Of a DNA stretch of 49,619 nt, positions 7,109 to 12,199 are shown piece after piece. Within the stretch, counting starts at the first letter, position 1. Each line of letters begins with the position of its first letter. The stretch spans positions 1 to 49,619 of the forward strand of contig JAJPIJ010000050.1 in the NCBI GenBank assembly GCA_021324815.1. The letters run 5' to 3'. The translations under genes and the position numbers were made by a program. Source of the DNA: Gammaproteobacteria bacterium (lineage in GTDB: Bacteria; Pseudomonadota; Gammaproteobacteria; JAJPIJ01). The notes under the pieces were generated by a model. That model was not told the origin of the DNA. It searched no databases and saw only the letters and a list, made by a program, of their open reading frames with translations.

Positions 7109-7678
7109 ATGAACGTCCCCAATACGCTGACCCTGCTGCGGCTGTTTTTGATCCCGGTGTTCGTGGTGGTGTTTTACCTGCCTGTTCATGGAGCGCACGC
7201 CTTGAGCGCCTTGATCTTCGCCTTCGCCGCGCTCACCGACTGGCTCGACGGCTATCTGGCGCGCCGGCTAAAACAAATCTCGCCGCTTGGCGAATTCCTC
7301 GATCCCGTCGCCGACAAGATCATGGTCGCGGTCGTCCTGGTGTTGCTGCTGCAGCAGTACCCCACCGTGTTGCTGGCGCTGCTGACCGCGGTCATCGTCG
7401 GCCGCGAGATCGCGGTCTCGGCGCTGCGGGAGTGGATGGCGGGCCTGGGCGTGCGGCGGCGCGTGGCGGTTTCGGCGCTCGGCAAAATCAAGACCGTCAT
7501 GCAAATGCTGGCGCTGATTTTGATGCTCTACCGCGCCCCGCTGGGCGGGTTCGACACCTACGCTCTCGGCCTGCGGCTGCTTTACCTTGCCGCGCTGCTC
7601 ACGCTGTGGTCGATGTTCGTTTATTTGCTGGCCGCCTGGCCGCAATTGCGGGACGGCGGGAATAAAAACCCCGGTTGA
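7109..7678 (+). CDS. pgsA: CDP-diacylglycerol--glycerol-3-phosphate 3-phosphatidyltransferase
   Basis: Predicted 189-aa integral membrane enzyme that makes phosphatidylglycerol phosphate from CDP-diacylglycerol and glycerol 3-phosphate, the committed step to phosphatidylglycerol and cardiolipin. The CDP-alcohol phosphotransferase signature DxxDGxxAR(x8)GxxxDxxxD is complete in DWLDGYLARR through PLGEFLDPVADK (about residues 35-70). Several hydrophobic helices follow, including the C-terminal LRLLYLAALLTLWSMFVYLLAAW. It sits behind uvrC and ahead of tRNA-Gly, the conserved gammaproteobacterial order. A short stem (ACCCCG/CGGGGT, 7668-7688) overlaps the stop codon and may weakly terminate transcription. 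Confidence 0.97.
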   Translation: MNVPNTLTLLRLFLIPVFVVVFYLPVHGAHALSALIFAFAALTDWLDGYLARRLKQISPLGEFLDPVADKIMVAVVLVLLLQQYPTVLLALLTAVIVGREIAVSALREWMAGLGVRRRVAVSALGKIKTVMQMLALILMLYRAPLGGFDTYALGLRLLYLAALLTLWSMFVYLLAAWPQLRDGGNKNPG

Positions 7679-7722
7679 TTTGCGGGGTCCTGTTTTATGC
7701 GTCCTGTGGATGGGTCTCTCCC

Positions 7723-7751
7723 TTGACACCTTTGCCATGGGCATGAACAAT
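7723..7751 (+). promoter_or_regulatory. Promoter of tRNA-Gly
   Basis: A consensus TTGACA (7723-7728) is followed after exactly 17 bases by AACAAT (7746-7751), 13 bases before the tRNA. The perfect -35 makes this a confident sigma-70 promoter despite an average -10. Confidence 0.65.
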
Positions 7752-7764
7752 ACACCTCAAGCAT

Positions 7765-7840
<76 letters not shown>

Positions 7841-7852
7841 GTTGAACTCAGG

Positions 7853-7882
7853 AAAACCCCGGCCACGGGGTTTTCTTTTTTT
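7853..7882 (+). terminator. Rho-independent terminator after tRNA-Gly
   Basis: AAAACCCCG (7853-7861) pairs with CGGGGTTTT (7866-7874) around a GCCA loop, then a C and seven T residues. It would separate tRNA-Gly from tRNA-Cys and tRNA-Leu. Confidence 0.85.
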
Positions 7883-7928
7883 AATCGGCATGCTTCAGGG
7901 CCGCCGGCAGGCGGTCGAGACCTATACA

Positions 7929-8002
7929 GGCTGGATGGCAGAGTGGTCATGCAGCGGACTGCAAATCCGTGTACGCCGGTTCGATCCCGACTCCAGCCTC
8001 CA
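7929..8002 (+). tRNA. tRNA-Cys (anticodon GCA)
   Basis: A 74-base tRNA with acceptor GGCTGGA (7929-7935) paired to TCCAGCC (7992-7998), T discriminator and encoded CCA. The anticodon loop CTGCAAA between GCGGA and TCCGT gives GCA. It matches the cysT position of the conserved cluster. I see no convincing promoter directly in front, although a terminator lies about 46 bases upstream. Confidence 0.97.
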
Positions 8003-8016
8003 TTTGCGCAATCCCC

Positions 8017-8022
8017 TATAAT
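8017..8022 (+). promoter_or_regulatory. -10 element ahead of tRNA-Leu
   Basis: A perfect TATAAT between tRNA-Cys and tRNA-Leu, 16 bases before the latter, suggests that tRNA-Leu and the cofactor operon behind it have a promoter of their own. No good -35 is visible at 16-18 bases, where the sequence is the tRNA-Cys 3' end. Confidence 0.45.
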
Positions 8023-8038
8023 TCCAGTGTGCTCAGCA

Positions 8039-8125
8039 GCCCGGGTGGCGGAACAGGTAGACGCAAGGGACTTAAAATCCCTTGGGGGAAACCCCGTGCC
8101 GGTTCGACTCCGGCCCCGGGCACCA
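8039..8125 (+). tRNA. tRNA-Leu (anticodon TAA)
   Basis: An 87-base class II tRNA. The acceptor GCCCGGG (8039-8045) pairs with CCCGGGC (8115-8121), followed by A and CCA. The anticodon stem AGGGA/TCCCT encloses CTTAAAA with anticodon TAA; a long variable arm and GGTTCGACTCC T-arm follow. It corresponds to leuZ of the E. coli cluster. The next gene begins only 23 bases after the CCA, with no terminator between. Confidence 0.97.
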
Positions 8126-8148: not shown

Positions 8149-9162
8149 TTGTCAGAATTAATCCGCCGACCCGGCAAAATCTTCGTATGCGAGTTCGTCA
8201 CGGGCGGGGGCTTCATCGGCCGGTCCCTGCCCCCGGCGCTCGCTGGCGAGGGCGACATGATGCTGCGCGCGGCGCTGGCCGATTTTTGCGCACTGAACGA
8301 TGTTGCAATCGTCACGACCCGCGACGCGCGACTGCCGTCCTTGGATCATGCCGCGGAGATTATCACGGTGCAGGGGGAGCCGTGGGAGGTGTGGCGGCGG
8401 TGCATTGCAACGACGGATGCGGCGTTGATTGTCGCGCCCGAAACCGGCGGCGTTTTGGAGCGGCTCAACCGCATGGTCGAGGATGCGGGCAAATTGCTGT
8501 TGGGATGCTCCTCGCCGGCGGTGGCCCTCACGGCGAGCAAGATCACGACGCTGAATACATTCGCGCAGCACGGCGTGAGGGTGCCGGAGACCGTGTATTG
8601 GGGGACACGGCCCCCGAAGGGGGACGACGGCTACGTGGTGAAGCCGGATGACGGGGCGGGCAGTGAAGATACCTTCTTCTTTGCAACGGCGGCGGAATTT
8701 TCGGGATGGAGTCCTCCCGATATCCGGCGCACATGGATAGCGCAGTCTTACGTGCCAGGACGGGCGATGAGTCTTTCGCTGCTCTGCGGTCCGGGCCGCG
8801 CCGCGGTGCTGACCGTCAACGAACAGCTGCGGGACCGCGAAGGAGAGGTCTTGAGGCAAACCGGCACGCTGGTCAACCCCTCCCCGCAACCGAGATCCGC
8901 CATGCAGGGACTCGCCGATCAACTGGTGGGGCTGCTGCCGGGTTTGCGTGGTTTTGTGGGCGTCGACTACATCGAGACCGGCGCAGGGCCGGTCGTGTTG
9001 GAAATCAATCCGCGCCTGACCACGAGCTACGTGGCGGCGAGCCGGTCCCTGGGCGTCAATGCCGCGCAATTAATCGTGGAGGCATGTCTGGGACGGGGGG
9101 AAGCGATGACTCGAACGCCGGCGTCATGCCTCTGGCGGGTCGAGGTGCCTCATCTTGCGTGA
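8149..9162 (+). CDS. ATP-grasp ligase, MfnD-like (methanofuran-type cofactor synthesis)
   Basis: Predicted 337-aa ATP-grasp enzyme. The fold shows in CEFVTGGGFIG at the N-terminus, GYVVKPDDGAGSEDTFF in the central ATP-binding part and the metal-binding end VVLEINPRLTTSYVA. ATP-grasp ligases of this type next to MfnF- and MfnE-type genes correspond to MfnD, which in methanogens joins glutamate to tyramine. Bacterial methylofuran uses tyrosine-derived chains, so the exact acceptor here is open. The assignment rests mainly on context. The start is TTG (8149); no strong ribosome site is visible and no other start keeps the N-terminal motif. It lies 23 bases after tRNA-Leu and overlaps the next gene by eight bases. 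Confidence 0.75.
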   Translation: MSELIRRPGKIFVCEFVTGGGFIGRSLPPALAGEGDMMLRAALADFCALNDVAIVTTRDARLPSLDHAAEIITVQGEPWEVWRRCIATTDAALIVAPETGGVLERLNRMVEDAGKLLLGCSSPAVALTASKITTLNTFAQHGVRVPETVYWGTRPPKGDDGYVVKPDDGAGSEDTFFFATAAEFSGWSPPDIRRTWIAQSYVPGRAMSLSLLCGPGRAAVLTVNEQLRDREGEVLRQTGTLVNPSPQPRSAMQGLADQLVGLLPGLRGFVGVDYIETGAGPVVLEINPRLTTSYVAASRSLGVNAAQLIVEACLGRGEAMTRTPASCLWRVEVPHLA

Positions 9163-10195
9163 GGTCGCGGCATGTGCCGGATGGGACATCGGCGGCGCGC
9201 ATCTCAAGCTGGCGGTCGCGGACACGCGCGGCCGGCTGATCCACGTGGGCCAGTATTCCTGCCCCCTCTGGCGGGGGCTGAATGAACTCGATCTACAGCT
9301 GTCGCGCCTGCACCGCCGCTTTCGCTTGCGGGAGGCCCTGCACCTCGTCACCATGACGGGGGAACTCGCGGACATATTTGCCGATCGCCACGAGGGCGTG
9401 CAGACTTTGTTGCGCGTGGCCGGCCGGCGCATCGGTGCAGGGCGGCTCAGGGTCTATTCGCTGCGCCATGGATGGTGTGACGTACGGACCGCGGTCCGCG
9501 TTCCCCTCGAAGTGGCCTCGGCGAACTGGCATGCCACCGCGGCGTCGGTGGCGGGGATCGTGCCGGAGGCGCTGCTGGTGGACATCGGCAGCACCACCAC
9601 CGACATCATCCCCATTCACAACGGCCGGGTGGCGGCGCGGGCGTCGACGGACGCCGGACGCCTGCGCACTGGCGAACTTCTATACACTGGCGTGAGCCGC
9701 ACCCCCGTCATGGCGGTGGTGCGGCGGATGAAATTTCGCGGCGTGTGGCAGAACATGACGGCGGAGCAGTTTGCAAACATGGCGGACGTTTACCGGCTGA
9801 TCGGCAATTTGCGCTTTGGTGCTGATGAAACCGCCGATGGCCGCGGCAAAAAACCGCGTGACTGCGCCCGGCGCCTGGCGCGCATGCTGGGTTGCGATCT
9901 GCGCGATGCATCGATGCGGGACTGGCGGCAGGCGGCGCGATTCATCGCCGGTGCGCAGCAGGAGGGCGTGATGAAGGAGATGAATCGGGTGCTGTCCGTG
10001 TTCCCCCGATCCTCCGGCTGGCCGGTGATCGGCGCCGGCGCCGGCCGCTTTATTGCCCGGCGATTGGCAAAACGGCTGCGGCGCCGCTACCTCGATTATG
10101 CAGAACTCGTTAACGCGCCGCGCAGATGGCGCGAGCCGGCCGCCGTTTGCGCGCCCGCCGTGGCGCTGGCGCTGATGGGCCGGACATCATGCTGA
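9155..10195 (+). CDS. Hydantoinase/ASKHA-fold H4MPT-linked C1-pathway protein, MfnF-like
   Basis: Predicted 346-aa protein of the acetate/sugar kinase-Hsp70-actin superfamily. Phosphate-binding motifs appear as GWDIGGAHLKLA (9-20) and DIGSTTTD (143-150), with a C-terminal GAGAGRFIARRLA loop. Proteins of this family were first noted as H4MPT-linked C1-transfer genes in methylotrophs. In methanogens the homologue MfnF condenses the furan phosphate-derived unit with gamma-glutamyltyramine to build the methanofuran core. The start is TTG (9155), supported by GAGG at 9142-9145, nine bases upstream. It overlaps both neighbours (8 and 7 bases), so translational coupling is likely. Function is inferred from the family and the operon. 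Confidence 0.78.
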   Translation: MREVAACAGWDIGGAHLKLAVADTRGRLIHVGQYSCPLWRGLNELDLQLSRLHRRFRLREALHLVTMTGELADIFADRHEGVQTLLRVAGRRIGAGRLRVYSLRHGWCDVRTAVRVPLEVASANWHATAASVAGIVPEALLVDIGSTTTDIIPIHNGRVAARASTDAGRLRTGELLYTGVSRTPVMAVVRRMKFRGVWQNMTAEQFANMADVYRLIGNLRFGADETADGRGKKPRDCARRLARMLGCDLRDASMRDWRQAARFIAGAQQEGVMKEMNRVLSVFPRSSGWPVIGAGAGRFIARRLAKRLRRRYLDYAELVNAPRRWREPAAVCAPAVALALMGRTSC

Positions 10196-11583
10196 AAACC
10201 CCGCGCATCGTGGAGCTTCCCTACCACGAGGACACCGCGATCCGTTTTGACGCCTTCGCCGACCGGCCGTGGTGCGTGCTGCTGGACAGCGACCGCCTGT
10301 GCCAGCGCCAGGGCCGATTCGATATCTTCGCCGCCGATCCCGTCTTTACCCTTACCACGCGCGGCGGCCGCACCGAGATCAACACCGCCGGCGGAACGGC
10401 GATCTCCGATCTCGATCCCTTCGCCTTGTTGAAGCGGCACTTGGGCGAAATCCTGCCGGGGCATCCGCTGCTGCCCTTCACCGGCGGGGCGATGGGGTAT
10501 TTCGCCTACGATTTGGGACGGCGTGTGGAGCGGCTGCCCGACATTGCCATTCACGACATCGACATGCCGGACATGGCGATCGGCGTCTACGAGCGTTGCG
10601 TGGTGGTCGATCACTTCGACAGGCGGGCATACTTTATCAGCCGTGCAGAGGATGGCCGCGGCGACGCCGAATGGCTGCACAAACTCGAGGTGGCTCCGCC
10701 GCCGCAAACGCCCGTCGCCTTCTGTCCCCGGTTCCGGGTGCTGTCCGCGGTCAAGCCGAATCTGAGCCGCGCGCAATACGCCGTGCGCTTTGAGCGCATC
10801 AAGAAATATCTTCGCAACGGCGATTGTTACCAGGTGAATCTGGCGCTGCGCTTTTCCGCCCGCGCCGACGGCGATCCCTGGGACGCCTACAAATACCTGC
10901 GGCAGCTCAACCCTGCGCCGTACTCGGCGTTTTTGCGCGTGCCCGGCGGCGAGGTGCTGAGTTCATCGCCGGAGCGTTTTCTGAACGTGCGCAACGGCGT
11001 GGTCGAGACCAGGCCGATCAAGGGCACCCGCCCGCGCAGCGCCGATCCGATCCGCGATCAGCAAATGATCGAGGAGCTGCGCAACAGCCTCAAGGACCGC
11101 GCCGAGAACGTCATGATCGTGGATTTGCTGCGCAATGATCTTGGCAAGAACTGCCGCACCGGCTCGGTCAGCGTGCCCAAACTGTTCGCCGTGGAGAGTT
11201 TCGCCACCGTGCATCATCTGGTCAGCACGGTGCGGGGCGAGCTGGCGCCGGGACGCCATCCGGTGGATTTGCTGCGCGGCTGTTTTCCCGGCGGCTCCAT
11301 CACCGGCGCGCCCAAGCTCCGCGCCATGGAGATCATCGAGGAGCTGGAGCCGCACCGGCGCAGCGTGTACTGTGGGGCCATCGGTTACATCGGCGTCGAC
11401 GGCGGTATGGATACCAGCATCGCCATCCGCACGCTGGTGTGCCACGACGGCTTCATGCATGCCTGGGCGGGCGGCGGCATCGTCATGGATTCGGTGATGG
11501 AGGCGGAATACCAGGAAAGCCTCGACAAGGCGGCCGGCATGATCCGGCTGTTCATGAACACCGAGACGCCGGATGCCGTTTGA
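10189..11583 (+). CDS. pabB: Aminodeoxychorismate synthase component I
   Basis: Predicted 464-aa chorismate-binding enzyme that, with a glutamine amidotransferase (PabA), makes 4-amino-4-deoxychorismate, the precursor of p-aminobenzoate. The diagnostic PIKGT (276-280) carries the lysine typical of PabB; anthranilate synthase has Ala there. The segments SSSPERFLNV, LLRNDLGKNC and GGSITGAPKLRAMEIIEELE complete the chorismate domain, preceded by a TrpE_N-like region. ATG 10189 is used, overlapping the previous stop by seven bases; an in-frame GTG farther upstream would lie deep inside that gene. p-Aminobenzoate is needed for folate and also for tetrahydromethanopterin, which fits its place among MfnD/F/E-like genes. 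No pabA is visible in the window. Confidence 0.95.
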   Translation: MLKTPRIVELPYHEDTAIRFDAFADRPWCVLLDSDRLCQRQGRFDIFAADPVFTLTTRGGRTEINTAGGTAISDLDPFALLKRHLGEILPGHPLLPFTGGAMGYFAYDLGRRVERLPDIAIHDIDMPDMAIGVYERCVVVDHFDRRAYFISRAEDGRGDAEWLHKLEVAPPPQTPVAFCPRFRVLSAVKPNLSRAQYAVRFERIKKYLRNGDCYQVNLALRFSARADGDPWDAYKYLRQLNPAPYSAFLRVPGGEVLSSSPERFLNVRNGVVETRPIKGTRPRSADPIRDQQMIEELRNSLKDRAENVMIVDLLRNDLGKNCRTGSVSVPKLFAVESFATVHHLVSTVRGELAPGRHPVDLLRGCFPGGSITGAPKLRAMEIIEELEPHRRSVYCGAIGYIGVDGGMDTSIAIRTLVCHDGFMHAWAGGGIVMDSVMEAEYQESLDKAAGMIRLFMNTETPDAV

Positions 11584-12199
11584 GCTCTGGGTGGTGAAGG
11601 TCGGCGGCAGCCTCCACGGCACGCCCGATTTGAAACCCTGGCTGCACGCGCTGGCGCTGACCGGCGGCGGACGCCTCGTCATCGTGCCGGGGGGCGGGCC
11701 GTTCGCCGATCATGTGCGCGCGGCGCAGCGGCGCGACGGATTTGACGACCTCACCGCCCACCGCCGCGCGCTCTCGGCGATGGAGCAGTACGGGCGCGAA
11801 CTCATCGATGAGCAGCCGGGGCTGCGGCCCGCCGCGACCGACGGAGCGCTGCATGCCGTTCTCGGCGCGCGTGCGGTGCCGGTGTGGATGCCCGCCGCCA
11901 TGGCGGGAGACACCGCCGATCTGAAATGCGACTGGGGGACGACCTCGGACACGCTGGCGGCCTGGCTCGCCGCGCGCCTCGGCGCGGCCCACCTGGCCCT
12001 GATCAAATCCGCGCCGCCGGAAGCGGGCCGCTGGCCGGCGCGGCAGCTCTCGGCCGCGGGGGTGATCGACCGGCATTTCGGCGATCATCTGCGGACGGGC
12101 CGCTTCCGCGCCTGGTGGCTGGGCCGCGGCGACCACCGGCGGTTTGCCGACTACATCAACGCCGATGGCCTGCCGCCCGCTGAAATCCTGTCCGTCTGA
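11573..12199 (+). CDS. Amino-acid-kinase-family protein, MfnE-like
   Basis: Predicted 208-aa small kinase of the amino acid kinase superfamily. The nucleotide/phosphate motifs are VVKVGGSLHG (7-16), IVPGGGPFADHVR (37-49) and CDWGTTSDTLAAW (120-132). At this length it lacks the extra domains of aspartate or glutamate kinases. In methanogens the short member MfnE phosphorylates the aminomethylfuran phosphate intermediate of methanofuran. Given MfnD- and MfnF-like genes two and three places upstream, the same reaction is the most likely one here. It starts inside the end of pabB (11-base overlap) and is the last gene of the operon. A weak stem without T-tract follows (12206-12237). Confidence 0.78.
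   Translation: MPFELWVVKVGGSLHGTPDLKPWLHALALTGGGRLVIVPGGGPFADHVRAAQRRDGFDDLTAHRRALSAMEQYGRELIDEQPGLRPAATDGALHAVLGARAVPVWMPAAMAGDTADLKCDWGTTSDTLAAWLAARLGAAHLALIKSAPPEAGRWPARQLSAAGVIDRHFGDHLRTGRFRAWWLGRGDHRRFADYINADGLPPAEILSV

Follow-up and report, generated by a model that had tools for sequence, protein, structure and literature searches.

Four open reading frames lie head to tail on the + strand at positions 8149-12199 of the window, that is, the whole stretch of 49,619 nucleotides of gammaproteobacterial DNA that was analysed. They encode an MfnD-like ATP-grasp ligase (orf1; 8149..9162, TTG start, 337 aa), an MfnF-like ASKHA-type H4MPT-linked C1 pathway protein (orf9; 9155..10195, TTG start, 346 aa), PabB, the aminodeoxychorismate synthase component I (10189..11583, ATG start, 464 aa), and an MfnE-like short protein of the amino-acid-kinase family (orf21; 11573..12199, ATG start, 208 aa). 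Overlaps of 8 bases between mfnD and mfnF, 7 between mfnF and pabB and 11 between pabB and mfnE had been described in an earlier note on this DNA, and both the reading frame coordinates and a genome of the same genus confirmed them. This second genome (locus L031) had all four genes, with identities of 68% (mfnD), 70% (mfnF), 88% (pabB) and 70% (mfnE), and with the nearest start codons the overlaps were again 8, 7 and 11 bases. These identities and equal overlaps indicated that the genes are real and that the overlaps are not due to chance, and such short overlaps suggest translational coupling of the four genes. The earlier note was mistaken, however, in calling the genes fused: the frames are separate and merely overlap, which rules out gene fusion. 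With regard to start sites, the TTG of mfnD at 8149 may be off by a few codons, because the same-genus gene begins with GTG slightly further in. A longer version of pabB with an ATG start at 10126 was disfavoured, since matches with relatives open on the first residue, or close to it, of the protein read from 10189. Just before the operon (window 7109-8125) we found a gene for a pgsA-type CDP-alcohol phosphatidyltransferase and genes for tRNA-Gly, tRNA-Cys and tRNA-Leu; the last of these occupies 8039-8125, and the operon starts 23 bases downstream of it.

The MfnF-like protein passed the curated cut-off of TIGR03123 (Orf9, H4MPT-linked C1 pathway protein) with 319.4 bits against 244.1, and matched PDB entries 3c0b/3cet (E 3e-31), the former being an archaeal protein of the MfnF kind. 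Against NF040623 (MfnF) it reached 138.7 bits, under the equivalog cut-off of 520, and is a homologue only. For the MfnD-like protein, NF040722 (MfnD) was the top NCBIfam match (77.8 bits, E 9e-22; the cut-off of 400 was not reached), Pfam ATP-grasp_3 and preATP-grasp_3 were both over cut-off, and the ATP-grasp structure 3df7 was a relative in the PDB (E 4e-14). NF040622 (MfnE) was the sole NCBIfam match of the MfnE-like protein (51.8 bits, E 8e-14, under the cut-off of 300), which also had Pfam AA_kinase over cut-off and PDB 7qrh, an amino-acid kinase fold, as a relative (E 2e-11). Near-invariant positions among 8-15 homologues included the motifs that are rich in glycine and those that bind phosphate, such as KxGGS and VPGGG of MfnE and GSTTxD of MfnF. 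Because MfnD, MfnE and MfnF all scored below the archaeal equivalog cut-offs, these matches indicate homology and not proven function, and the exact substrates named below are predictions. Judged by its sequence, the MfnD-like product is probably a tyramine/tyrosine:glutamate ligase. A chance assignment of the ATP-grasp and kinase genes was rejected.

Another reading starts from the low scores that the first and fourth proteins had with the archaeal equivalog models: the ATP-grasp protein and the kinase would be unrelated paralogues drawn into a pABA/folate operon, and the assigned roles would hold for mfnF and pabB alone. We consider this unlikely, since MfnD and MfnE were respectively the best and the only NCBIfam matches of these two proteins, and mfnD- and mfnE-like genes accompany mfnF and fae in relatives that belong to several families. 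In addition, deletion of orf1 (Mfla_1650) in Methylobacillus is reported to increase formaldehyde sensitivity (PMC8141765).

The third product scored 376.7 bits against TIGR00553, over the cut-off of 328.4. It carries the motif PIKGT, whose catalytic lysine marks PabB, and the only related gene in the genome (contig C6) has PIAGT, the form found in TrpE. The PIKGT-type pabB is therefore a single copy and should serve folate synthesis too; an operon for folate only was rejected. A common association of pabB with the biosynthesis of H4MPT has been described for methylotrophs (PMC3615186).

Gene order was compared in a sample of 37 genomes, this one included. TIGR03123 was carried by seven of them, and all seven kept the order mfnD-mfnF-pabB-mfnE. 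In five of the seven (L032-L036), the block adjoins fae, and mch, orf5 and orf7 belong to the same run; except for L034 this run also includes mptG, mtdB and orfY. An orf17-like gene of the HisA family lies between fae and mfnD in L032 (11694-12404), L034 (11573-12271) and L035 (5118-5960), on the strand opposite to the mfnD operon, so that orf17 and the four-gene transcription unit diverge in these genomes. With this gene in between, the block does not come straight after fae in these three; in L036, mfnD is next after fae. The full four-gene order was also found on gammaproteobacterial contigs L009 and L012, and L008 and L011 had mfnF-pabB-mfnE. The alphaproteobacterial loci that were fetched contained mfnF without the four-gene arrangement. 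In the genus of the window, represented by this genome and G001, the block is separated from the other genes of the island. The genes fae, mch and orf5, linked to it in L032-L036, are located on contig C21 in this genome, in the order mptG-mtdB-orfY-mch-orf5-orf7-fae.

The search of the whole genome, a 2.37 Mb draft that is 98% complete, covered fae, mtdB, mch, fhcABCD, mptG and mfnB, all of which were present. There were two fae genes, one mch, two fhcD and fhcA/B/C in two fhc sets, as well as mptG, an orf5/MyfB-type ligase, an mtdB-type dehydrogenase, an orfY/MyfA-type ATP-grasp protein and an orf7/CitG-like protein. The mfnB gene adjoins a DUF447 gene and an orf20-like gene, the latter matching TIGR00284 below cut-off, and an orf17-like gene on contig C50 had 46% identity to a relative's gene. 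Other H4MPT and methylofuran genes are thus present, so that the outcome which the earlier note had named as refuting its reading, a genome with no such genes, did not occur. One PQQ alcohol dehydrogenase was found over cut-off; the host is probably a methanol-oxidising gammaproteobacterium. One could see the operon as a relic of a pathway that the organism has given up, as the island is split across contigs in this genus and forms a single run in five relatives. However, the four reading frames are open and conserved, and those of the other pathway genes are also open, which makes this very improbable.

Taken with the family relationships, gene order and genome context described above, the operon is best read as a compact unit making precursors of two C1 carriers (methylofuran and, through p-aminobenzoate, the pterin carrier) for formaldehyde oxidation, a reading to which we assign a probability of about 90%. 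The role in C1-carrier synthesis that the earlier note had proposed is thus supported by the family matches, by the pathway genes of the genome and, in relatives, by the linkage with fae and mch. The product expected in bacteria is methylofuran, not methanofuran. With the published methylofuran pathway used as a template (PMC8141765), we infer the following order of reactions and substrates. MfnB and a transaminase would yield aminomethylfuran phosphate, and MfnE would phosphorylate aminomethylfuran-methyl phosphate to the pyrophosphate. MfnD would ligate glutamate to tyramine (or tyrosine), giving glutamyl-tyramine (or -tyrosine), and MfnF would join the products of MfnE and MfnD into the methylofuran core, to which MyfA and MyfB would add further glutamates. 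PabB would form aminodeoxychorismate and hence p-aminobenzoate, the substrate of MptG for (dephospho)tetrahydromethanopterin and also used for folate. The remaining steps in which the carriers are made and used would fall to the MyfA/MyfB-like ligases, MfnB, MptG, Fae, MtdB, Mch and Fhc, whose genes lie on other contigs.

Against this assignment stand the Mfn scores below the equivalog cut-offs and the genome-wide search for an MfnA-type tyrosine decarboxylase, which found none although an MfnD homologue is present. An MfnD homologue without a recognisable MfnA makes tyrosine conceivable as its substrate, and a minor possibility is that it joins glutamate to tyrosine instead of tyramine. If so, it would be the first ligase known for tyrosine-type methylofuran.

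Contig C21 carries two tandem fhc operons. In one, FhcB (L023:9085-10536) is of the usual bacterial type. The other (L023:12379-17143, contig positions 36379-41143, - strand) has a B subunit close to archaeal FwdB: this second FhcB (L023:15806-17143) matched archaeal FwdB structures with E 1e-111. It retains the iron-sulfur cysteines and also the cysteine in SVCHGPS, which is the metal ligand in archaeal FwdB and presumably here, and which the usual type lacks. A sample of 274 genomes of the class contained 12 with the FwdB-like type, this one counted; the others are 70-80% identical, the SVCHGPS motif is present in all 12, and most have a normal bacterial fhcB alongside. A flavoprotein resembling GltD/ferredoxin-NADP-reductase is encoded between the two operons (L023:10667-12193, - strand), and a two-gene NAD-type formate dehydrogenase then follows (L023:1230-5673). 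Genome G122 has both fhc sets, the flavoprotein (L077:8425-9810, + strand, at the equivalent position) and the formate dehydrogenase in equal order. The flavoprotein is a candidate electron partner. The second fhc set may encode a genuine bacterial formylmethanofuran dehydrogenase. It is more interesting than the four-gene operon and merits its own study.

The view in the earlier note that the combination with pabB is little described does not hold: the same genes have already been published as H4MPT/methylofuran genes of methylotrophs (PMC4109929, PMC3615186, PMC8141765), and what the note annotated well is an ordinary gene block of methylotrophs. Specifically, orf1 (mfnD), orf9 and pabB have been listed for Methylophilaceae as genes of the H4MPT pathway (PMC4109929), and the bacterial homologues have been equated as orf9 with MfnF, orf21 with MfnE and orf22 with MfnB, orf1 being MfnD-like (PMC8141765, PMC5020050). 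Compared from published gene lists, the islands of methylotrophic proteobacteria (orf1, orf9, pabB, orf21; mch, orf5, orf7, fae, orf17) are alike in gene content, but here the four genes come after a pgsA-type gene and tRNA genes and are not part of the C21 run. Of the enzymes of methanogen methanofuran synthesis (MfnA-F), MfnB, MfnD, MfnE and MfnF have homologues in this genome; the differences are that no MfnA was found and no gene was assigned to MfnC, and that the expected product is polyglutamylated methylofuran. Our analysis leaves the current understanding of methylofuran or H4MPT biosynthesis unchanged; it adds one more gammaproteobacterial lineage in which the cofactor pathway of formaldehyde oxidation is nearly full, and shows a four-gene unit whose order is conserved across several families.
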